Source: a virus. Taken from it: a stretch of 39,786 nt of DNA. The position numbers were made by a program, and so were the translations under genes. Location: IMG/VR virus record IMGVR_UViG_3300042485_000623, positions 1 through 39,786 of that record. One strand, given 5' to 3'. Positions 1 to 39,786 of the stretch are shown in pieces; positions within the stretch are counted from its first letter, which is position 1, and the number at the start of each line of letters is the position of its first letter. The notes beneath the pieces were generated by a model that saw only the letters and a program-made list of their open reading frames with translations, was not told the origin of the DNA and made no database searches.

Positions 1-237
1 GAAGCGCTTCGAATTCCTTTAACGATTTCGCGGTGACTTTCGGGCGCTGTTCGCTTTTCAAGTCGTCAATTAGTTTTCCATATGGACAGTAAACGACCCA
101 AGCGCGCTCGCGTCCGTCTACATCATCGAAGCCCGCCTTATTCGTTGTAAAAAATACAGCGCCGCGAGATTCCAACGGGTAGAAATGAGTTATTTTTGAA
201 CCGAAAAACCGCATTGTTTCAGGCGAGAAATAAAAGC
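1..237. repeat. Terminal overlap, left copy (pairs with 39550-39786)
   Basis: Bases 1-237 match bases 39550-39786 with seven substitutions, at 59, 68, 89, 92, 95, 101 and 110. Positions 1-58 and 111-237 are identical. All seven differences fall on third codon positions of the gene that crosses here, and all are synonymous. This is what overlapping ends of a circular or circularly permuted genome look like when the two ends come from slightly different members of a population. Confidence 0.95.
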
Positions 238-340
238 CCTCTAGATGACTAATTGCGCGCGCTGTTTGGTAACGCATGTCTTCGAATTGCACACGGTAAC
301 CGCGACAGCCTGAACATTCACAACTAAAGAATTTACGCAT
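1..340 (-). CDS. Cysteine-rich hypothetical protein, 5' part (continues across the join at 39549)
   Basis: The ATG at 340 overlaps the stop of the 333-911 gene by 8 bases and the frame runs off base 1. Continued at 39549 it stays open to the stop at 39416. The joined gene is 474 nt, 157 aa. It begins with a CxCxxC motif (MRKFFSCECSGC) and ends with CxCxxC and CxxCxxxC motifs, so it probably binds one or two zinc ions. I do not recognise the family. Its operon partners (333-911, 39317-39415, 39034-39216) are also small and cysteine-rich or membrane-bound. The function is unknown. Confidence 0.85.
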   Translation of the reverse strand, partial: MRKFFSCECSGCRGYRVQFEDMRYQTARAISHLEGFYFSPETMRFFGSKITHFYPLESRGAVFFTTNKAGFDDVDGRERAWVVYCPYGKLIDDLKSEQRPKVTAKSLKEFEAL

Positions 341-3121: not shown

Positions 3122-3149
3122 AAAGTACACTAACGCGCTGACATGTCAA
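3122..3149 (-). promoter_or_regulatory. Predicted promoter P1 with palindromic operator
   Basis: On the minus strand TTGACA (3144-3149, perfect -35 consensus) is followed after 16 bases by TACTTT (3122-3127, fits TAnnnT). The -35 overlaps the perfect palindrome TGACATGTCA (3139-3148). The same arrangement, TTGACATGTCAG then eight bases then TGTA, occurs at P2 (12692-12719). It drives the 3091-1300 operon. Confidence 0.75.
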
Positions 3150-4180
3150 GCATTTCCGAGATTCTTTTTATAGAAGGCTAAATTGTCCAATACTCGCTGG
3201 TCTCTAGTGATCGACACGGCCTTGTTTGCATAAGTTATGGCTTCTGTTTTCTTGCCGAGTTCCCAAGCTGACAGGCTAGCAAAGTCATTCATCTGGAACA
3301 TGGCGCTAGGTTGGGCTAGGTAGTGCTTCTGGGGCAAGGTATCGAGTCCCTTTAGGGATGTGTCGTAACATTCTTGCCAGTTCTTTTGGAAGTAGTGGTA
3401 CTGCGCTAGCGCACACCAAGGTTCTGGCTCATTAGGTAGTACATCTACCCCACCTTGATACCAGGCAAGCGCTTCTTCTGTACGCCCCAAGTGTGTACAA
3501 GCATCACCGGCATTGCGACACGCGGCAGCTCTTTCTACATCCCAGCCAGTTTGGTCAAGTTCTTTGGCTACCCGTATAACGTCCTCATAGCGCTTGTGGA
3601 AGCCGTACTCTCTGATTAAGTACACCAACATGCGCTGGTCAGGCTCGCTCTGTACAGCCTGCTCAAGCATTGTTAGGTATTGGGCGCGAGACTTACTGTT
3701 ATCTGGTTGATGCCTGATAGTTGCGTCAATGGCGCAGGAGACCACTTCAGTTCCCATACTGGGCGCTGGTACTTCGTGGATTGGGTACTTCCAGTGGAAC
3801 CCGTGTCGCGTGTGTATTCGATCAGATACCCATACAGTTCCGGTATCCATGTAGATCCAGCCACGATTAGAGCCTTTCTTCCATTGCTTGCGCAGCTTGT
3901 TAAAGAATTGTGCTTCAGGTACTTCGTCCATGTCTACAGTTACACAAATGTCTACATCGCTTGGTACTAAATTTAGCGCTGTATTTCGTGCGCTATCAAA
4001 GCGCCAGGGTTGGATACTAATGTCGTGAACTTGGACACCGGCATCCCGTAACAAACTTTGAGTGCCATCGGTTGAGCCTGTATCGGCCACCACTAATACG
4101 TCAGCACCAGCGCAAGCCTTGACCCAGCGCTTTACGTGCTTTGCTTCATTAAGAGCTATTGAATAGACTGCGATCTTCAT
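3146..4180 (-). CDS. Family 2 glycosyltransferase with C-terminal TPR repeats
   Basis: This is a 344-aa protein. Residues 1-110 form a GT-A domain, with IALNEAKHVKRW near the start, DTGSTDGT at 33-40 (nucleotide-sugar binding) and DMD at 83-85 (metal-binding DxD). Residues about 180-340 contain TPR-like helical pairs (EEALAWYQGGVDVLPNEPEPWCALAQ and following). It should transfer a sugar to a protein or glycan. It lies directly after the tail-fibre genes and shares their direction, so it may modify the virion fibre or the host surface. Its stop codon lies inside the P1 -35 element. The acceptor is unknown. Confidence 0.9.
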   Translation of the reverse strand: MKIAVYSIALNEAKHVKRWVKACAGADVLVVADTGSTDGTQSLLRDAGVQVHDISIQPWRFDSARNTALNLVPSDVDICVTVDMDEVPEAQFFNKLRKQWKKGSNRGWIYMDTGTVWVSDRIHTRHGFHWKYPIHEVPAPSMGTEVVSCAIDATIRHQPDNSKSRAQYLTMLEQAVQSEPDQRMLVYLIREYGFHKRYEDVIRVAKELDQTGWDVERAAACRNAGDACTHLGRTEEALAWYQGGVDVLPNEPEPWCALAQYHYFQKNWQECYDTSLKGLDTLPQKHYLAQPSAMFQMNDFASLSAWELGKKTEAITYANKAVSITRDQRVLDNLAFYKKNLGNA

Positions 4181-24091: not shown

Positions 24092-25051
24092 CTAGGCGTT
24101 TACGCCGATTGAGGATGCAGATTCGATGCGACGAAGTGCGGCTTGGCGGAATACGCTGTAGCCAACTAGGTGCTTCCAACCCATGCCTTCGAAACGACGA
24201 AGTGCGTCAGTTACAGGAACATCAACCATTGCTGGGTTAGCTGAGTAGCCACCACCAGTTGAGTATGCCTTAGCAAGTGCCTGACGGCCCATGATAAGTG
24301 TTCCGTAAACGTCGATAGTTCCGGTTCCGTTTAGGCCGTCTCCAGCGTTAGCGAACAATGGTGCGCGTGGTGATTCCATGAACTGAACGCCCTGGAATGA
24401 ACCAATAACACCGTTGTAGATACCGGATGGATCGCTGTAAACAGCAGGATCTGACCAGTTTGTACCACCGGTAGCGCCACGGAAGTCGTAGCTTACGTCT
24501 GGGTGGATGATGCCCTTGTATAGGCCGTTGTATGTTGCAACGTTAGCGGAACGAAGTTCTGCAACTGCGCGACGTACATCGTTACCAACTAAGGTATCTG
24601 CTACGTCTACATCGTTACGGTCTCCGTCGCCACCTGAGTAGCGAACGTTACTACCAGCCTGAGCAGCGTTGCGAGCAATGCTGTCGATTGAGATACCAGC
24701 GTTGAAGCCAAGTACGTTAGCAACTACTGGGTTTACAGCCATGAAAGCTGTAGCGCGCAACTTGGCAGAAGTCTGAACGGCGTTACCGTATTCAGCCAAA
24801 GTTACAGTTACCTGTGAATCATCGATTGTTACTGGAGTAACGTCGGTTGTTTCACCTAGAGCGGAGGTAGCAGCAGCAAGTTCGTTGAAGATTGTGAACT
24901 TAACGTCTACACCTGGGGATGTTAGATCGGTTGTGCCAACTTCACATACGCTGTCGAAGAATAGTTCTGGGCGTAGCGAGAAGTAGGCTAGCTTTTCGTA
25001 ACCAGCAATGACGATGTCAAGACTGGCGGTATTGGTGGCTGTAATAGTCAC
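24092..25051 (-). CDS. Major capsid protein, N4-gp56-like
   Basis: This is a 319-aa protein. The N-terminal part reads YFSLRPELFFDSVCEVGTTD, then KFTIFNELAAATSALGETTD, then VTVTLAEYGNAVQTS, the pattern of the N4 gp56 major capsid family (HK97 fold). NGLYKGIIHPDVSYDFRG and GSFQGVQFMESPRAPLF follow, and the protein ends SSIGVNA. Many copies form the shell. The start is GTG at 25051 with a strong AAGGAGGA ribosome site. It follows the scaffold gene with a 25-base gap. Confidence 0.93.
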   Translation of the reverse strand: MTITATNTASLDIVIAGYEKLAYFSLRPELFFDSVCEVGTTDLTSPGVDVKFTIFNELAAATSALGETTDVTPVTIDDSQVTVTLAEYGNAVQTSAKLRATAFMAVNPVVANVLGFNAGISIDSIARNAAQAGSNVRYSGGDGDRNDVDVADTLVGNDVRRAVAELRSANVATYNGLYKGIIHPDVSYDFRGATGGTNWSDPAVYSDPSGIYNGVIGSFQGVQFMESPRAPLFANAGDGLNGTGTIDVYGTLIMGRQALAKAYSTGGGYSANPAMVDVPVTDALRRFEGMGWKHLVGYSVFRQAALRRIESASSIGVNA

Positions 25052-27901: not shown

Positions 27902-30900
27902 TTACTCTGGTTGGTCTACAGCGAACGTGTCGCTTTCGAGGAATTTGTAGAAATAGTATTTTGCAGTTTCGTTCTGAAGGTAAGGCATAATTCTTTCACC
28001 GTACTTTTCTTTCATTTCGGCGCTAGGAGTGGACTTACCCATGCTTCTAGTTGCTTCAACTAGCAAATCTCGCTCATTCATAATTCCTTCTATGTCGAAC
28101 CAGTAGGAATCTTCAGGAAGACTGCTTACAAATTTTTCGTTATCTAAGGCTACCTTCATAGCGCGAACAAAACCAACGGTGGAATTGGCTCCAGAAAGAG
28201 CGGTGTATTCTTGCCACCATTCAGGGTTTTGCTTTCCTATGTCTTCAAGGCGCTTGCGCTTTAGTTCGTTTAATCCTTGCGCCGCGTTTGAATAACGCGA
28301 AATTTTACGAGCCTTCAATTCAGAGTCGTAGTTTTCGTTTTCTGTAAAGAATTTAGCCCATCCATCGCGTACTTGCTGATTTGAAAAACCTTCTTCGGCA
28401 GTAAGAGTTACGCGGTCTCCGGTCTTTTTCTGCCAGTAACTTGCGTAAGGATCCCTAAGAACTGGAGCGCCAACGTTTTTATTAGTAACCATTTGAACAA
28501 ATGCTAATGCTTCTTCGCGTGGTAATCCTGAATCGGCAATAGCCTTTTCAATCATTTCGCTATGTTCCATGCGTAGCGCTACTGCATCAGTAGAAGCTGA
28601 AGAACCTGCTAAGTTTTTACTTCTAGAAATAGCAATGTATCCCATGTCTGGATAATCTTCTAGCCACTTATCGTAAGCTGTTACACCGTACTTGGTTTGG
28701 TATCCACGGTACAACTCTACATAAGGTGTCATTGGGCCTTCATAACTTGGAATAAAACCAAAAGTTAAATTTACAGATAGGCGTAGCGCTAGCATCGCAG
28801 ACGCTTCTTCAGCAGCCATTTCCCATAACATTTCATTGTTTTTCAATGGGCTATCACTTAAAGGTTGTTCTTCTCCAGTGCGGATGCGATCTAAATGGTT
28901 CTGGAACATTACAACCTGTGTGCGCTCGAAGTCATTATTACTTGGTCCGTTAATTTCTGACTTAACATCACCTGTAGCCAAACTTGCAAGTCTGCGGTTC
29001 CAAGCAGACTGAAATGGTGCATACCATTTGTCCGATGGGTAAGGTGAAGCAAAAAGTTCTAGTATTTCTCGTTTAGGAATTGGAATACCAAAAACTTCTG
29101 TCGCTTCGGCATCTAGGGCAGGATTGTTTTTAATAATTTCATTAGCAGCAACTTGAACCGCTGGTCCTACACCAATAATGCTCTGTCCAGCTTTAGCCCA
29201 GCGAGCAATTTTTTCTACCGTTCCTTCGTCTTGTCCTGGTAGAACTTCTGGTGCTTCTAGACGAAGTCCTGCCATAAGTAAGTTAAATGAATTTACACTC
29301 CAGCGCCACTCGTTTTGACTCTTTAGTGCATTGCGTAGAGCTAGAGGCATCGACCTGCTAAATCCATTTTCGTCGTAAAACCCTGGAGGTATCTTAAACA
29401 TTAAGAAGCGATTTCCCTTTGAGTCTTCAGTAGCATTGGTATTGATTTGATTCCATGCGTAAATCAATCGCGCTGACTTATCTGGATTACGGTAAGACAA
29501 TTTTCCAGTGCGCTTAAATGTCGAATACTGTGCTTGGAAGAATGGCGCTAGTACCGGTATCGAGTCACCAATAGAGTTCTTGCGAATTACTCGGTACAAG
29601 TATTCTCTGGACTGCTTAACTGCCCACTTACGGGCAATCGTCTGAGCCTGAGCCATGTCTAGATCGCTTGGCTCGGTTATTCCATTGGCTTCCCAGGTCT
29701 TCCAAATTTCATCTAACTTATTGGTGTAAACCGCTTGAGCAAATGGAGTTGAAACAAAAGCATCTTCTGGGTATTCCCCGATTACTCTAAACACCCTACG
29801 GAATAAAACATTAGTAATCCAAGCATTTGTTTTTTCAGCCAAACTTGTGTCTGGGTTTCTCCAGATACTTGAAGATTCAAATGTTTCTCCATGAATAGGC
29901 TTTAACTCTGCGTTTCTAGCAGCTATCCGCAAGTCTGCGGTAGTGACAATTCCCTCACCTCTACCCAGAGTGTCGGTAGCCAAGCGCTCACGAACAAGAG
30001 TTTTCATCTGTTCATTTGGTAAGTAATTATCGATCATGCTTTTTACAAAGTCTAAATAGTTTGCTTCAATAGATTGAGACTTGTCAACAATTAAACTTTC
30101 TTGAACTGCATCTCTTGATGGGTAGTAAGCATAAACTGGTCTTCCAAGTTCAGTTTCTCCTACTTTAACCCTGACAGCTTCCCCACCCATAACAACTTTT
30201 TGAGGTAAAGGTTTTCCAGCTTTACGATCTTTAGGTGCGTCAACGCCTTCTTTTTGAGCCTTAGTTAAATCTTGAGTCCAATTTAATTTTTCAAGTTCTT
30301 GCTTACCTGCTGGAGTTTGTAGGTATTCTAAAATTTCATCATCAGTTTTTCCAGAGATTACTTGCATAGCTGTACGGGAACCACGGAATTGTTGGTTTAC
30401 AGCCGTGGCTAGGGAGGCAAAGTAAGAATCATCTGTCGGGTGTACGCCAGTAAAGTCACCAGTTCTAGCCAATCCCATTTCTTCAAGCATTGAGAAAATA
30501 GGGCTTGAATCGAAGTTTAATCTTCCACCAGAACTAACAAGCGCTCTAGTGGCTTTTCCTTGAGGACCTTCGTAAACTCCAGCAAACTCTAGTGGACCAA
30601 TTCTTACTGTTGTTTTCGCTATAGACCTTTGGGTTCCAAAGCGCTCTCCCTTGGCCGCAACGCGCTTTGCTATCTCTGCCAACTTTCGGTACTCAAGATT
30701 TATTTGTTCATCTATTCTTGCTATCGCTGCTTCAGGGTAAACGAATCCACTGCCAGCAAACTCTGGATTACCTAAAAGTTCTTCAGCGGTATCTATCATT
30801 CCCTGCTTTTGATCTTCAAGTAACTTGATGCTGTCTGTAGCAAACTTCTCGTAGTCTCCCCATACGAATTGCTTAGGGGTTAAAGACCTCAAAAGAGAGG

Positions 30901-33391
30901 AAGCCATTTCTCCGGTTGAACTAGATAGGTCAAGACCGGCTTGGTATCTAGCAGCAACATCTTGGAAATACGAGTATCTGTTTAATGCAAAGTTCTTAGA
31001 GGCTTCAGTCATTTTGCCAACGCTGAACATGTTGGACAGACCTTTATCGTATTGAGATAAAACCATCCACTCAGATAGTACGTTGCGCTGTGGATAACCT
31101 AGGCGTACAAGAACGTCAGCCCGCCACAAACGATCTACTGTAGCCCATGTAGGCATAATCCATTCATCTTTAACCATACGGCTATTGAAAGCAATGGTTT
31201 CCCAAGTTCCCTTGTCGCTAGCAAATGCGCTCATGTACTTATCAAAGGCATCAGTGTCAATCATTGGAACTGCGTAATCTAGTTGCGACTCTAGAACTGG
31301 GTTAGAAATAAAAGTCTGGTTTGAGTCAACTGCAAAAACTTTATCTTGCTTAAACTGTTTTACGGCTAGAGCGCGATCTTGCAAAAACTTGTTGTAAACA
31401 AATTCCCACATTGGAATTTCTGAACCATCTTCCATTTTTTTCATGGTGTCAGCGATGCCATACTTTTCGGCGGTAGCTTTGATTACTTCTTTTTCGACTA
31501 CCTCTTCTAGGACCCTTTTGCGAGCCAAACCATCTTTAGCTGCTACGTAAGAATCCATCATTGAATTTTTTAGTTCAACATTTCCATCGAATACTGGGGT
31601 GTTGTCTAGAAATACCCTTAGTTCCTTAACGCCATCGTAGTAATCAAGACCGTCAACAGTTACAAGACCTGAAGGTTTTTCTAGGTTTAATCTATGTCCT
31701 ATCCACTGCGCTACGTAAACGGGCTTGTGTAAAGGAGACTTTTGTATTCTTTCCCACTTGAACTCAACATTTGGCTTTCTGCGTACAGCCAATGGTTTTA
31801 ATGTTCCGTCTTGAAGCCCAGCGCGCGTAATCGCTTTATTGGCGCGGTAGGACTCAATGATTGGGGATAGTTTTCCAGCATTAGATACAGGAACTCCAGT
31901 TAGAGATCCTACTAAACTGTTATCTGTTCTAAGCAACCGGTCTAAGTAAGTATCTTCATTACGTAGATCTAAAACGTATTCTGACAACTTAGCCTTTTGT
32001 GCGTTTAATCTTTTAGTTGTTAAAGGGTCATTCTCATTGATAGCACGCTGGATTATTACTTCTACGTCGTCCATCTTTGTCTGAGCAGCGTCAATCAATC
32101 TAACTAGGCTTTGCTGTTGATTGTAGAGACGGAAGTAAGCGGAAGCGTCAGATCCTTGTGCAATTAAAAGAACGTCAGTTACTGCGCCTTCTCCTTTTTT
32201 TGCAGCAGAGGCAAGGGCAACAGACAGGAACTCGCTATCTACACCAAAGTCTCGGATTGTTCGGTGAGCGTTAATTTCCTGCCAAGTCATTTGGCGATCA
32301 ACGATTTGCTTGACAAACTCTGCAACACCAGTAGCCAGCGTAGGCTTTGGTGCTTCTAAGCTATTTAATTCATCAATCTTTGTTTGGCGCTCTAGAACCT
32401 TGTCTTCAAGAGTTTTGACATAAGACCGGTAATCATCTACGAAAACTCCTACTGCCAGGTTTTCATCTAATAACTTTTTGCCGTCTAGTTCGCGAACGTA
32501 ATTAACTTCAGCTTTAATGCTGTCGTCAAACATTCTTTGATTATCTATTTCTTCTAAAACAGTTTTAGCGCGACTTAATTCTGGTGCTTCGTTTATTAAA
32601 GCAAGTTTTTCTTCTGCTACTGTCTGGCTAGCTTTTGCGTGAGTAGCCTGGTGTACGTTCCAATCACTTGTTTTAACTATTGACTCTGAACGGAAATTGT
32701 CTAAGTAGCGTAAACGACCTGCTTTAGCGACCTTTCCTACTCCTACCAGTGGATCAAATACAAGTTGCTTACCAACATCTAGCCCACCCGAAACGTTGCG
32801 GAAAACATTTTCAGCCCATGATGCTTCTGAAACTTTATTTCCAGCGGAATCTACTCTTTCCCCTGCTTCGTTGTATAAACGAGAGTAAATTCTTTCTCGC
32901 ATTTGATCGTTGTAAATGTTAATGTCAACGTTGTTAAGTTCAGCCAATGCGCCATAGTCAGGAAGCATGTTGTAGGTATTAGCAAAATTGTCGGCTATTG
33001 CCTGACCAAAAGAAATCTCTTTACGGCCATCCCAAGCGCGGGCAATAGCGTTGGTGTATTCATCTTCTTGGGAGTAAGTATCTGGGTTAGCCATAAGCGC
33101 TGCGAATCCAGCCGCTTCGTAAGTTGGTTGGTAGACGTACTTATCCAAAGTTGTAATAACTTCGGTTCCGGCAGTTTCTTGGTCGCCAATTACTAAGTTA
33201 TCGAACGTTTGTTCGGTTACCTTTTGGGCAGTGTCAGGAGACATACCTGCTTGTACTGCTTGTTTAGCAACTAGCCCTTGGGCTAAAGGAATTGTTGCAG
33301 TTGACTGCGCTCCAAAGGCTCTAAGTACATTTCGTCCAACGCTACCTAGCGCATTAGATCCAGATTCTAAAAAATCATCCCATAAACTCAA
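27902..33391 (-). CDS. Giant virion protein (1829 aa)
   Basis: By far the largest gene, 14% of the genome. The start is TTG at 33391 overlapping a stop as TTGA. The N-terminal 70 residues (SGSNALGSVGRNVLRAFGAQ) and an Ala-rich helix look like a membrane-active or DNA-exit segment. Long helical and coiled-coil parts follow (about 250-450). Around 755-790 is WRADVLVRLGYPQRNVLSEW, and near 1345 SIPVLAPFFQAQYSTFKRTG. Both recall conserved blocks of large phage 'polyvalent' or ejected proteins. I see no transglycosylase, polymerase or protease signature. It is probably packed in the head and ejected with the DNA. Confidence 0.8.
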   Translation of the reverse strand: MSLWDDFLESGSNALGSVGRNVLRAFGAQSTATIPLAQGLVAKQAVQAGMSPDTAQKVTEQTFDNLVIGDQETAGTEVITTLDKYVYQPTYEAAGFAALMANPDTYSQEDEYTNAIARAWDGRKEISFGQAIADNFANTYNMLPDYGALAELNNVDINIYNDQMRERIYSRLYNEAGERVDSAGNKVSEASWAENVFRNVSGGLDVGKQLVFDPLVGVGKVAKAGRLRYLDNFRSESIVKTSDWNVHQATHAKASQTVAEEKLALINEAPELSRAKTVLEEIDNQRMFDDSIKAEVNYVRELDGKKLLDENLAVGVFVDDYRSYVKTLEDKVLERQTKIDELNSLEAPKPTLATGVAEFVKQIVDRQMTWQEINAHRTIRDFGVDSEFLSVALASAAKKGEGAVTDVLLIAQGSDASAYFRLYNQQQSLVRLIDAAQTKMDDVEVIIQRAINENDPLTTKRLNAQKAKLSEYVLDLRNEDTYLDRLLRTDNSLVGSLTGVPVSNAGKLSPIIESYRANKAITRAGLQDGTLKPLAVRRKPNVEFKWERIQKSPLHKPVYVAQWIGHRLNLEKPSGLVTVDGLDYYDGVKELRVFLDNTPVFDGNVELKNSMMDSYVAAKDGLARKRVLEEVVEKEVIKATAEKYGIADTMKKMEDGSEIPMWEFVYNKFLQDRALAVKQFKQDKVFAVDSNQTFISNPVLESQLDYAVPMIDTDAFDKYMSAFASDKGTWETIAFNSRMVKDEWIMPTWATVDRLWRADVLVRLGYPQRNVLSEWMVLSQYDKGLSNMFSVGKMTEASKNFALNRYSYFQDVAARYQAGLDLSSSTGEMASSLLRSLTPKQFVWGDYEKFATDSIKLLEDQKQGMIDTAEELLGNPEFAGSGFVYPEAAIARIDEQINLEYRKLAEIAKRVAAKGERFGTQRSIAKTTVRIGPLEFAGVYEGPQGKATRALVSSGGRLNFDSSPIFSMLEEMGLARTGDFTGVHPTDDSYFASLATAVNQQFRGSRTAMQVISGKTDDEILEYLQTPAGKQELEKLNWTQDLTKAQKEGVDAPKDRKAGKPLPQKVVMGGEAVRVKVGETELGRPVYAYYPSRDAVQESLIVDKSQSIEANYLDFVKSMIDNYLPNEQMKTLVRERLATDTLGRGEGIVTTADLRIAARNAELKPIHGETFESSSIWRNPDTSLAEKTNAWITNVLFRRVFRVIGEYPEDAFVSTPFAQAVYTNKLDEIWKTWEANGITEPSDLDMAQAQTIARKWAVKQSREYLYRVIRKNSIGDSIPVLAPFFQAQYSTFKRTGKLSYRNPDKSARLIYAWNQINTNATEDSKGNRFLMFKIPPGFYDENGFSRSMPLALRNALKSQNEWRWSVNSFNLLMAGLRLEAPEVLPGQDEGTVEKIARWAKAGQSIIGVGPAVQVAANEIIKNNPALDAEATEVFGIPIPKREILELFASPYPSDKWYAPFQSAWNRRLASLATGDVKSEINGPSNNDFERTQVVMFQNHLDRIRTGEEQPLSDSPLKNNEMLWEMAAEEASAMLALRLSVNLTFGFIPSYEGPMTPYVELYRGYQTKYGVTAYDKWLEDYPDMGYIAISRSKNLAGSSASTDAVALRMEHSEMIEKAIADSGLPREEALAFVQMVTNKNVGAPVLRDPYASYWQKKTGDRVTLTAEEGFSNQQVRDGWAKFFTENENYDSELKARKISRYSNAAQGLNELKRKRLEDIGKQNPEWWQEYTALSGANSTVGFVRAMKVALDNEKFVSSLPEDSYWFDIEGIMNERDLLVEATRSMGKSTPSAEMKEKYGERIMPYLQNETAKYYFYKFLESDTFAVDQPE

Positions 33392-35704: not shown

Positions 35705-35910
35705 TAAGCCTCCAGTAGTTTAACTTTCAAAGTTTCCAGTAACCCGATAAGAGTAATACCTTCAATACTACCAACATGATTACTACAAAGTGTAAAATCG
35801 CCGTCAGAATCAATCCCCCACAGAACACGAAGACCATAAGAAGGAATTTGTATGTCAGATGCTTCAGCGAGGTCAGCAAAGTCAAGAAAGGCATCCTTTA
35901 TCTGACCCAT
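35704..35910 (-). CDS. Hypothetical 68-aa protein between terL and portal
   Basis: This acidic protein begins MGQIKDAFLDFADLAEASDI, then a beta strand block (GLRVLWGIDSDGDFTLCSNH) and an acidic C-terminal helix. I chose ATG 35910, which overlaps the terL stop by 13 bases and has a GGTGGA site upstream; an ATG at 35928 is also open. The family is unknown. Confidence 0.65.
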   Translation of the reverse strand: MGQIKDAFLDFADLAEASDIQIPSYGLRVLWGIDSDGDFTLCSNHVGSIEGITLIGLLETLKVKLLEA

Positions 35911-37745
35911 CGGGATCCACCCATCCAAGAAGGACGTTTGAATGACACATTATTTTGACCCACATGGAAAAGTCTAGGGGCGTTCCATTGCAAGAACCAA
36001 TGAGACATTACGCAGTCGTCGGTTTTTCCCTCTGGCCAAGTGCTTAATTCAGTGATCATTGGCTCTATTTTCTTGCGCGAGCCATCCATTACAGCACCAG
36101 GTAAACGCACACGACCATAGCGATAATGCGGAGCAAGCGTCTGGACACCGTAATCTTCATCTGACTTATTCCTGTGAGTTGAGTGGGGAACGATGTTAAT
36201 GCCATTGATAGATTGCCAGCGCTTTACATGATCGTACTGCAAAAGGAAGCGCTGTGCAGCGTTTTGTTCAACGATTATGTAGGTAACTGGTTTACCCATG
36301 TCCCTAGCTCGGTCTACCCATTCATCCAAAAGCCCAGAGAACTTACCGTCAGCCTGATTCCAGTCTAAAAAGTCAGGAGCATCCATTGGACCGCGGTATA
36401 AATCAAGCAAATACTGGATTTCTGTCTCTGGGTTGTAAAGCCACCACTGGACAGCCCAGTTTTTAGTAGGGGATGGGTCAGCGGTGATAACGCTAAACCA
36501 GTCTCCACCTAGATTCTTAGGGATTTGTCCGATACCTCGGTTTTCATCCCAGCACCCTGGATGGGTTATCCCGTCAGAGTCAGTGCCGCCTTCAATCCAG
36601 ATTCTAGGAACTAGCTGGTTGTCAGCATCGTGGTCTTCTTGCTGGTACATAACCAGATAACGTTCTTCGCGGTTAGCCTTTACCCGCTGGAGTTCGCGCC
36701 AAGATAGTCGGATTGGATCCAATAAACAGCCATCAGGCCACGGCTTAGGGTTATCGTGCTTACCGGTACACAATTCGTCGTAGTGGGACTTGTAAACGAT
36801 GTGCTTGTACTTCTTAGGAGCATCATCAACAATCTCCCCTTCGTCGTCTACGTCAGTTAAATCAAGGACATAACGGTAAAGATCATCGGAGGCTAGTCGC
36901 TGTCCCTGTAGAATCAATAGTCCACCTGGTTCTAATCGAGACTCAGCTTCGTTCTCCCACCAAGTAGTTAAAGCGTCAAAATCGCCACGCATGGTCTTTT
37001 TATCCACAAGGTCGTCCCAGATGATGAAGTCGAAACGTCCACCAAGGAAACCAGAGTCCATACCGTAGGCAGTTACAGTGGATTCTTTATCATCAACAGC
37101 AACACCAGAGGATTGCTGGACTACAAATTCGGCCTTTGTCCACAGGTCGTTGTTGGCAGGTTTGAATAACCCGTAGTCCTTGGCCATAGTTGCAGTGGCA
37201 TCGGTAGCCAGACCCAGTTCAACTAGTTTGGGATCAGCTCGTACGGCTAGTTCACGTTCCAGAGTCCTACGAAGGCGGTTAGAGTACATTCTTGCTTGTT
37301 GCTCGGTACGGGAAGCTACCATTATTCGGATAGACCGGTCTCTGGCTATAAGCCATGCTGGGAGGTCGTGGGTGAACATGGTGGATTTACCCACACCAGG
37401 AGCGATGTTGATAACTAGGAACTCTTTTTGGGGAGATGCCAGTAGTTCAGTGATCTTGTTAGCAGCTTCTACCGACCATGGGGTGCTGGCTCTAGCCATG
37501 TACCGTTGACGGAAATAACCAAAATCCTCTAAAGCCCGTAAACCCTCCGGTGATGATCCAAGATCAATACTTAAACCCCTAGAAGCCATCAATCTGCTAA
37601 GGCGAGAGTCACGATTAGCCATCTGCCGTGTTACCGTAGAAACAGCAACTCCCACATCCTTAGCTGCTCGCTCTACTGAGTAGCCCTTCTCCCTAAGATC
37701 AAGGAACTTACCCCATACATCATCGTCTACTTGTCTGCCTGCCAT
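35898..37745 (-). CDS. terL: Terminase large subunit with N-terminal HTH domain
   Basis: This is a 615-aa protein. Residues 10-50 form an HTH (FLDLREKGYSVERAAKDVGV, then AVSTVTRQM), unusual for TerL. The ATPase follows: Walker A APGVGKST (115-122), Walker B FIIWDD (240-245), then SRTEQQ and the coupling region. The nuclease domain has TADPSPTKNW (D423), YIIVEQNAAQ (E493) and KTDDCVMSHW near residue 590. It pumps DNA into the capsid and cuts the concatemer. TAGGCT lies exactly six bases before ATG, suggesting a leaderless mRNA. Confidence 0.93.
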   Translation of the reverse strand: MAGRQVDDDVWGKFLDLREKGYSVERAAKDVGVAVSTVTRQMANRDSRLSRLMASRGLSIDLGSSPEGLRALEDFGYFRQRYMARASTPWSVEAANKITELLASPQKEFLVINIAPGVGKSTMFTHDLPAWLIARDRSIRIMVASRTEQQARMYSNRLRRTLERELAVRADPKLVELGLATDATATMAKDYGLFKPANNDLWTKAEFVVQQSSGVAVDDKESTVTAYGMDSGFLGGRFDFIIWDDLVDKKTMRGDFDALTTWWENEAESRLEPGGLLILQGQRLASDDLYRYVLDLTDVDDEGEIVDDAPKKYKHIVYKSHYDELCTGKHDNPKPWPDGCLLDPIRLSWRELQRVKANREERYLVMYQQEDHDADNQLVPRIWIEGGTDSDGITHPGCWDENRGIGQIPKNLGGDWFSVITADPSPTKNWAVQWWLYNPETEIQYLLDLYRGPMDAPDFLDWNQADGKFSGLLDEWVDRARDMGKPVTYIIVEQNAAQRFLLQYDHVKRWQSINGINIVPHSTHRNKSDEDYGVQTLAPHYRYGRVRLPGAVMDGSRKKIEPMITELSTWPEGKTDDCVMSHWFLQWNAPRLFHVGQNNVSFKRPSWMGGSRWVR

Positions 37746-37751
37746 GGTTGA

Positions 37752-37757
37752 AGCCTA
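37752..37757 (-). promoter_or_regulatory. Predicted leaderless promoter -10 for terL
   Basis: TAGGCT lies exactly six bases upstream of the terL ATG on the minus strand, with no clear ribosome site. The match to TAnnnT is weaker than at the holin and the regulator. Confidence 0.35.
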
Positions 37758-38282
37758 GCATTTGCAATAGATCTGGGGGGGTTCTAATAGACATACTCCC
37801 CCTATGGTGCTGTAGGCAGACCCCCAGTTAGTACCTACAGTAATCTAATCTGTAACTAACAATCCAAGTGTTAGGTAGGTGGGGGGGGATATAAAAGGAG
37901 TTACACCCCCCCTATTCATTAGGTGCGCCCCCCTCTTATAGCCATTGCAGGGCTTAGGAGCGCTATAGACGGGCGTAATCCAGGGGAATCAGGGAGAATC
38001 TAGGGAAATAGTTAACTATCGTTAGGCTTGCGCTATTGCTTAGGAATCCCCATCACCTGACCCAAAGCATGCTGCGGATGTATCAACCCGCGCACAATTA
38101 ACCCGCGCAACAATGACCCGAAAGAGAGTTCGGTTAGTTGCCCTTAGTTATCCGCCTACTTGATGAGAGCAAAGAGGCGCTAGAGACGAGCGACTTATGG
38201 GCGCTAGAAAAGACAAGCCCGCAACAAACAAACCACGCACCGAACCTGAACTTATTGCGCATTGCGCCACCGGAGCTTCGGG

Positions 38283-38317
38283 AAAAGAAAAACGCCCCAA
38301 CCAATCAAGGCGGGGCG
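38283..38317 (-). terminator. Strong intrinsic terminator of the join-spanning operon
   Basis: CGCCCC (38293-38298) pairs with GGGGCG (38312-38317), and on the minus strand it runs into TTTTTCTTTT. It lies 15 bases after the stop of the 38332-38553 gene and separates that operon from terL. Confidence 0.9.
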
Positions 38318-38331
38318 CGTTCCTTATTTAG

Positions 38332-38553
38332 TTATGAGGCAACTACATCCAAAAACAATAGAGCCTCCTCGAATCTTTCTTCGCGCTGGCAATCAGGGAA
38401 TTCGAAAGAGCAATCCCAATTCCAACAGTGAGTAACGAAGCAACCATCAGGACATAATGAACACATCGAATATTTAACGGGTGCGCCACAATGGAACCAT
38501 TCGCCCGAATCATTCTTAGTGAGAACCCCTTGGAAAATCTTAGGCGGAAACAT
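38332..38553 (-). CDS. Cysteine-rich zinc-binding-like protein (73 aa)
   Basis: It begins MFPPKIFQGVLTKNDSGEWF and has seven cysteines and several histidines in the middle (FHCGAPVKYSMCSLCPDGC, then THCWNWDCSFEFPDC), consistent with two zinc sites. A GAGG ribosome site precedes the ATG at 38553, which overlaps the previous stop by 14 bases. Last gene before the terminator. The function is unknown. Confidence 0.7.
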   Translation of the reverse strand: MFPPKIFQGVLTKNDSGEWFHCGAPVKYSMCSLCPDGCFVTHCWNWDCSFEFPDCQREERFEEALLFLDVVAS

Positions 38554-38890
38554 TTTGACCTCTTTCACATTCCCATTCGTCCAAATCTTCGTCATGTTCT
38601 GGACACGTTGCAAAATAGCCAAGAGTTACATCATCGAACGTAACAGGCGTTAGACATCTACTACATACCCACGGCTTATTTGAATTGGTTAAATCTTTAA
38701 GCGCATAAACAAACCCGCGCCAAGATCCCGCCATCGAATCGAAAGAAACCGTAAGCAAATCTTCGGTGACATCTTCGCCCACCTGTTCATATACCAAATT
38801 AAAGTTTTCATCCCACAATTCGGAGAGCGCTGTCATGGATTCCGCGACCAATTCCACCGCTGCGATTTGTTCCAGTGTTGGTTTATTCAT
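38540..38890 (-). CDS. Acidic hypothetical protein with a C-terminal zinc ribbon
   Basis: This 116-aa protein is mostly acidic helix (LEQIAAVELVAESMTALSEL, then VGEDVTEDLLTVSFDSMAGS). The C-terminal CSRC...CPEH forms a C-x2-C...C-x2-H zinc ribbon. The ATG at 38890 is chosen for its spacing of nine bases to GGAG; another ATG at 38896 is too close. It overlaps the preceding stop by 8 bases. No family is recognised. Confidence 0.75.
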   Translation of the reverse strand: MNKPTLEQIAAVELVAESMTALSELWDENFNLVYEQVGEDVTEDLLTVSFDSMAGSWRGFVYALKDLTNSNKPWVCSRCLTPVTFDDVTLGYFATCPEHDEDLDEWECERGQNVSA

Positions 38891-39041
38891 TTTCATTTTC
38901 TCCAAATTCTTTCTTAAATAGGTTCATTGCTTCTGTTATGCCGTAGCCGTAGTAGGTTTTCGCTACGCGGTGACCGTCGATAATGTCGGACACAATTACC
39001 GCGCCTGAGTGTTCAACAAGTGTGAAGATCGGATCAAGCAT
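38883..39041 (-). CDS. Small conserved-looking phage protein (52 aa)
   Basis: The sequence begins MLDPIFTLVEHSGAVIVSDI and continues KTYYGYGITEAMNLFKKEFG. The YYGY-x3-EA-x-LF-K-EF ending resembles a small domain found in many phages (a short beta-beta-alpha unit). The ATG at 39041 overlaps the previous stop by 8 bases. The function is unknown. Confidence 0.7.
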   Translation of the reverse strand: MLDPIFTLVEHSGAVIVSDIIDGHRVAKTYYGYGITEAMNLFKKEFGENENE

Positions 39042-39216
39042 TGGAACCGCCTAAGCAATCGGAACACATAACAACGTCAACGGAAGCTAAAGAGCGGGAA
39101 CAGTTAAAGCAAACCCGCGCAGAATCTGGCGCGCTAACGATTGACCAAATCCAATAGGCGATAAGCGCCCAACCACCCGCGAGAATTACGCGGGCAACGA
39201 TATCCAAATAGTTCAT
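39034..39216 (-). CDS. Membrane-anchored zinc ribbon protein (60 aa)
   Basis: One N-terminal transmembrane helix (about 7-28, VARVILAGGWALIAYWIWSI) is followed by CFNC...CSDC, a zinc ribbon facing one side of the membrane. The ribosome site AAAGGGG and the leader match those of the 333-911 gene. It could tether a host factor to the membrane. This is inferred from layout only. Confidence 0.75.
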   Translation of the reverse strand: MNYLDIVARVILAGGWALIAYWIWSIVSAPDSARVCFNCSRSLASVDVVMCSDCLGGSNA

Positions 39217-39316
39217 TTCTTACCCCTTTTAATAATTCGCCGAAATTGTTTTCGACTTGCAACCCATAAGAGCCACCGAGAACGCGCTAGAGATCCGAAC
39301 CCCTAGCGCGAACCCG
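39217..39316. other. Short non-coding stretch inside the join-spanning operon
   Basis: About 100 bases with repeated GCGC-rich segments (CGCGCTAGAGA, AACCCGCTAACG). The leader of the 39034-39216 gene is at the left edge. No terminator or ORF is seen, so an internal promoter is possible. Confidence 0.45.
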
Positions 39317-39415
39317 CTAACGCTTAGAGCGAGAGCGCCACCCACTAACCCAACCCGCCGACCAGATAGAGAGAATCACCCAAGCACCCACAACAAACAA
39401 AACAAAAGCGCGCAT
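39317..39415 (-). CDS. 32-aa single-pass membrane peptide
   Basis: The sequence begins MRAFVLFVVGAWVILSIWSA and ends in a basic tail (WRSRSKR), a type II-like membrane topology. The ATG at 39415 directly follows the stop of the join-spanning gene (TAA then ATG). The function is unknown. It carries a variant of the dispersed motif (CCACAACAAACA, 39388-39399). Confidence 0.6.
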   Translation of the reverse strand: MRAFVLFVVGAWVILSIWSAGWVSGWRSRSKR

Positions 39416-39786
39416 TTATTCGCCCCCGCAATGTGTCGGGCATCCGATACATATTTCAACATCGTGAACGCCTCGCCAATTTGCTTGATCGATTCGGCAA
39501 CCGTGGCAAATACATTGATTCACAATGTAATCGAAGCCACCGGAGCTTCGAAGCGCTTCGAATTCCTTTAACGATTTCGCGGTGACTTTCGGGCGCTGTT
39601 CGCTTTTTAAGTCGTCGATTAGTTTTCCATATGGACAATAGACAACCCACGCGCGCTCTCGTCCGTCTACATCATCGAAGCCCGCCTTATTCGTTGTAAA
39701 AAATACAGCGCCGCGAGATTCCAACGGGTAGAAATGAGTTATTTTTGAACCGAAAAACCGCATTGTTTCAGGCGAGAAATAAAAGC
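39416..39786 (-). CDS. Cysteine-rich hypothetical protein, 3' part (continues from base 340)
   Basis: This is the other end of the 157-aa gene that starts at 340. The start ATG is not in this copy, because the frame is open through base 39786; the ATG at 39763 is internal. The C-terminal end has NQCICHGC and EICIGCPTHC, two zinc knuckles. The 237 overlapping bases encode exactly the same residues as bases 1-237 despite seven substitutions. The stop at 39416 is directly followed by the ATG of a membrane peptide. Confidence 0.85.
   Translation of the reverse strand, partial: FYFSPETMRFFGSKITHFYPLESRGAVFFTTNKAGFDDVDGRERAWVVYCPYGKLIDDLKSEQRPKVTAKSLKEFEALRSSGGFDYIVNQCICHGCRIDQANWRGVHDVEICIGCPTHCGGE
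39550..39786. repeat. Terminal overlap, right copy
   Basis: Matches bases 1-237 with seven substitutions (39608, 39617, 39638, 39641, 39644, 39650, 39659), all synonymous. Removing one copy leaves a genome of 39549 bases. Confidence 0.95.

Follow-up and report, generated by a model that had tools for sequence, protein, structure and literature searches.

Near-identical ends of a tailed-phage contig suggest a complete, circularly mapping genome preceded by a short second-strain tip

The two ends of an uncultivated phage contig carry nearly the same 237 bases, which raises the question of what genome structure, or what course of assembly, leaves ends that are so similar without being identical. 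The window analyzed here is the whole 39,786-nucleotide stretch of IMG/VR record IMGVR_UViG_3300042485_000623. Direct end-to-end comparison aligned positions 1 to 237 with 39550 to 39786 without gaps and with seven mismatches (97% identity), confirming the end homology described in an earlier note on this DNA. The 237-bp overlap is no dispersed repeat, as the interior of the contig contains none of its 15-mers. Features discussed below are listed in Table 1.

Table 1. Coordinates of window features that bear on the overlapping ends
Feature	Position	Strand	Basis or remark
End-overlap copy 1, variant a	1..237	.	Ungapped alignment to 39550-39786
End-overlap copy 2, variant b, reaching the last contig base	39550..39786	.	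Same alignment
Block with all seven silent differences	59..110 (other copy 39608-39659)	.	Alignment and codon check
Exact 127-base repeat, putative merge vertex of the assembly graph	111..237 = 39660-39786	.	Alignment; metaSPAdes k list; toy graph
Putative strain-variant tip before the closed 111-39786 loop	1..110	.	Alignment and toy graph
Junction gene, 5' part (157 aa when joined)	1..340	-	Frame; weak DUF7447-like match; continuous homologue in G008
Junction gene, 3' part	39416..39786	-	Frame; matched in G008
Major head protein	24092..25051	-	phrog_1357, E 2.6e-61
Terminase large subunit, breakpoint reference in relatives	35898..37745	-	phrog_38, E 2.4e-46
16-bp perfect palindrome TTCGAAGCGCTTCGAA, longest in the window	39547..39562	.	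Contig base 1 equals its fourth base

Genes for a terminase large subunit and a major head protein identify the contig as that of a tailed phage (Caudoviricetes); further genes in the window include those for a tail fibre, exonucleases, and a methyltransferase. Its best named terminase matches are remote (22 to 25% identity, in phages of Streptomyces and Microbacterium), its head protein is ∼37% identical to those of Streptomyces phages, and we found no DNA-level likeness of its first 20 kb to any named phage. A terminase profile search returned 80 loci from IMG/VR and no match among bacterial and archaeal genomes. Uncultivated tailed phages with the same terminase (G003 to G022, along with L003 and L004 at 85% identity) resemble the window in that their terminases are 45 to 85% identical, their genomes are of similar size, and several have circular end overlaps. 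One related contig (G016; L168-L171, G016:C1:1-64966) is 64,966 bp long and carries two terminase genes ∼39.4 kb apart, with stretches 68 to 91% identical at offsets of 39.4 to 42.7 kb. It apparently makes ∼1.65 turns, crossing between two related phage genomes on the way, as an assembly chimera or as tandem elements. Within the window itself, a 1829-aa frame (27902-33391) that separates the head-gene region from the genes on the terminase side has only a partial match to phrog_10618 (a PHROG family of unknown function) and no clear Pfam domain, while positions 3146-4180 strongly match a phage beta-1,4-glycosyltransferase family (phrog_13126, E 8.4e-83). Upstream of the terminase (37700-39786) we counted nine terminator-like sites where shuffled sequence would give 2.6; the minus strand, which is the coding one, carries most of the nine.

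The mismatches between the ends follow a coding pattern. They lie at window positions 59, 68, 89, 92, 95, 101, and 110 (39608-39659 in copy b), all seven in one codon phase corresponding to the third positions of one minus-strand frame, and codon-by-codon comparison confirmed that every change is silent: CGC/CGA (R), GCT/GCG (A), GTC/GTT and GTT/GTC (V), TAC/TAT (Y), ATT/ATC (I), and TTG/TTA (L). The earlier note had put the chance of this pattern at about 1 in 2000; the pattern is indeed nonrandom, but that figure counted third positions alone. Silent outcomes make up 22% of random single changes in the overlap frame, and seven silent changes out of seven then give p ∼2e-5, so that, on the sequence, the differences are natural variants and not errors, as had been proposed. 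The layout of the overlap, 58 identical bases followed by a 52-bp block with all seven differences and then exactly 127 identical bases to the contig end, had not been described; neither the bunching nor the tail appears in the earlier note. Given the position of the last difference, the differences are patchy (p ∼0.006), which hints at mosaic ancestry, and we give this little weight because the identical tail would be partly imposed by the assembly graph. One further reading, which seems to us rather unlikely, is that co-occurring strains of the phage recently recombined here, in a gene subject to strong purifying selection, and so left the 52-bp block with its identical flanks. A degenerate-pattern search of IMG/VR, with the pattern verified against the window, found no third contig with either haplotype.

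Joining the ends restores a single gene. One 157-aa frame runs from position 340 through the join to 39416 and encodes the same protein from either copy of the overlap. The gene upstream of it ends at 333, overlapping its start, an arrangement that is usual for adjacent genes in phages. The junction protein alone as query retrieved no relative from IMG/VR; among 20 large contigs with the same terminase that were searched, only G008 carries the gene, and the others differ from the window in this respect. The G008 homologue (L192:6089-6448) is a single open frame that aligns to junction residues 5 to 136 with 42 to 44% identity, and the left-end and right-end fragments of the window both match this same continuous gene. 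In the window, residues 5 to 34 come from the left end alone and those past ∼113 from the right end alone. A homologue that aligns to both sets therefore crosses the join, which is thereby independently supported at the level of protein sequence. The homologue lies 2.7 kb upstream of the G008 terminase, a side that it shares with the junction gene of the window, but on the opposite strand relative to the terminase compared with the window, and it therefore backs gene continuity and not local gene order; its orientation suggests a local inversion or independent placement of an accessory gene. L003 and L004 were uninformative as tests of the join, as neither aligns to the window beyond the 5' end of the terminase.

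We consider it highly likely that the whole picture reflects one copy of a tailed-phage genome that is complete, maps as a circle of ∼39,549 bp, and was opened by the assembler, with a 110-bp tip from a second strain set in front of it. In such an assembly, a de Bruijn assembler opening a circle would leave an exact repeat one k-mer (127 bp) long, as between 111-237 and 39660-39786. A low-support branch of the second strain (bases 1 to 110) would be prefixed to the closed 111-39786 loop, merging with the main path at a 127-mer common to both strains, and the seven differences would be natural silent polymorphisms between two strains of the same phage under purifying selection. Without its 127-bp overlap the loop measures 39,549 bp, which would be the genome length. 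We modeled the neighborhood of the join as a toy de Bruijn graph (k = 127), with the end copy placed in a circle and the start copy entered as a short dead-end variant. The graph resolved into two edges only, a 237-bp tip and the loop, and on merging they gave a contig with all seven mismatches in place and an exact tail of 127 bases; the model is sufficient and is not proof of the actual course of assembly.

Published accounts of metagenome assembly describe outcomes of this kind. JGI metagenomes have been assembled with metaSPAdes at k values from 33 to 127 (PMC11584781), and a second account of the JGI metaSPAdes k list is likewise topped by 127, with 123 the top k for MEGAHIT (PMC10604447). 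The agreement of the 127-base tail with the largest k of the JGI metaSPAdes pipeline is suggestive only, since by rough estimate, with all common k values allowed, the chance of the tail matching some common k is perhaps 1 in 20. Circular templates apparently open at random positions, and the contigs that result carry a k-long repeat at their ends (CheckV, PMC8116208). The window is like these cases in that its last 127 bases exactly repeat an early stretch and its opening place would be arbitrary, and unlike them in that a 110-bp variant tip separates the repeat from the contig start, so that the window would escape an exact end-to-end repeat test. Similarly, metaSPAdes contigs share maxK-long end sequences at break points, with branches arising from a few strain-variant reads (COBRA, PMC10914622). 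The window shares this maxK-long common end sequence at a point where a few variant reads would branch, but its two ends belong to the same contig. For the present record we infer the assembler, k = 127, the physical form of the packaged DNA, and the derivation of bases 1 to 110 from a branch of a minor strain. We looked at, and then dropped, a possible tie of the contig start to the longest palindrome in the window: the 46 control contigs include no example with a long palindrome at either end, and the chance estimate was post hoc. The presence of the palindrome at the point equivalent to contig base 1 is probably coincidence, or else a coverage dip in the minor strain.

Gokushoviruses are circular single-stranded DNA phages without terminal repeats, and they served as a control. 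Among 80 IMG/VR gokushovirus contigs, 27 have exact end overlaps, 24 have imperfect ones, and 29 have none; in some of the imperfect overlaps, the only differences are one or two bases right at the contig ends. Two contigs (L061 and L068) have the anatomy of the window: in each, a lead (53 and 52 bases, respectively) and a single mismatch precede exactly 127 identical bases. In two others (L020 and L026) the overlaps differ at 19 and 23 positions, with 15 of 19 and 18 of 23 in one codon phase of an open frame, four amino-acid changes each, and no stops; L039, with 18 of 25 differences in one phase, is less certain, since stops interrupt part of its overlap frame. These five contigs are thus like the window in being circular phages with imperfect overlaps, some dominated by third codon positions and two with a 127-base tail, and unlike it in that they are small single-stranded DNA phages whereas the window is a 39.5-kb double-stranded DNA tailed phage. 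From these control cases we conclude that imperfect, protein-conserving end overlaps are ordinary in genomes known to be circular. We had expected the exact control overlaps to cluster at 127, and they did not (123 in five contigs, 121 in three, 99 in three, and 127 in two), which weakens the argument from k = 127. The most frequent length, 123, equals the largest MEGAHIT k in PMC10604447.

An identical-looking contig could also come from linear virion DNA whose direct terminal repeats are fixed, identical, and at least 127 bp long, if the left end of one strain were combined with the right end of another, because the graph collapses a terminal repeat that exceeds k into just such a loop. The break also lies ∼2 kb upstream of the terminase, a region where fixed phage ends are often found. 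The earlier note had argued against identical direct terminal repeats of a single virion; ends drawn from two virions of a mixed population would, however, give the same contig. What counts against a terminal repeat is that the overlap lies inside a coding gene, which would be cut at both ends, and that related contigs overlap by lengths typical of k, not by one conserved repeat. Overlapping ends occur in 5 of the 10 relative contigs of 38 to 44 kb that we examined (those five being 39.8 to 44.3 kb); four are exact (G009, 123 bp; G013, 99 bp; G018, 111 bp; G019, 127 bp), and the 143-bp overlap of G021 is near-exact, with two mismatches near its start. Relative to the terminase gene, the breakpoints of six contigs (these five and the window) are scattered (Rayleigh p ∼0.8). 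Scattered breaks would fit a circular map opened at arbitrary places and equally permuted, cohesive-ended, or terminally repeated virion DNA; scatter alone is not decisive against a terminal repeat, because a collapsed repeat also opens at an arbitrary place. Overall, we regard a fixed terminal repeat as improbable, with a small chance of being correct.

Slightly less probable still is that bases 1 to 110 derive from a different, related phage species that has a conserved stretch in common with the main genome, rather than from a strain of the same species. The difference at 7 of 52 bases between identical flanks is patchy in the way this would predict, and the G016 contig seems to pass between related genomes. 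The overall difference of 3% with no amino-acid change is nevertheless within the usual strain range, and no such second genome was found in IMG/VR. The literal content of the contig, one molecule with two diverged copies (nonidentical terminal repeats, or a gene segment duplicated at both ends), is highly implausible: the repeat extends to the very last base at each end of the contig, as expected of a wrap-around and not of an internal duplication, neither end carries a complete gene while joining restores one, and replication normally keeps the terminal repeats of a virion the same. Errors are frequent at contig tips, and yet sequencing or assembly error has next to no chance of explaining seven differences that are all silent and are followed by 127 error-free bases.

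A single opened circle with a second-strain tip remains our preferred reading, and the circular or permuted map proposed in the earlier note draws support from gene continuity over the join, from the single gene in a relative, from a tail the length of an assembler k-mer, and from similar overlaps in phages known to be circular. That note is right in substance, and the phenomenon is routine: assembly often yields such end overlaps, which are well understood and useful mainly as a sign of genome completeness. The first 110 bases of the record should be treated as the sequence of a second strain. With imperfect end overlaps in 24 of the 80 gokushovirus controls, tests that rely on exact repeats undercount complete genomes, and the present record is very probably one such case, a complete genome (∼39.5 kb) that would go unrecognized by a test of that kind.
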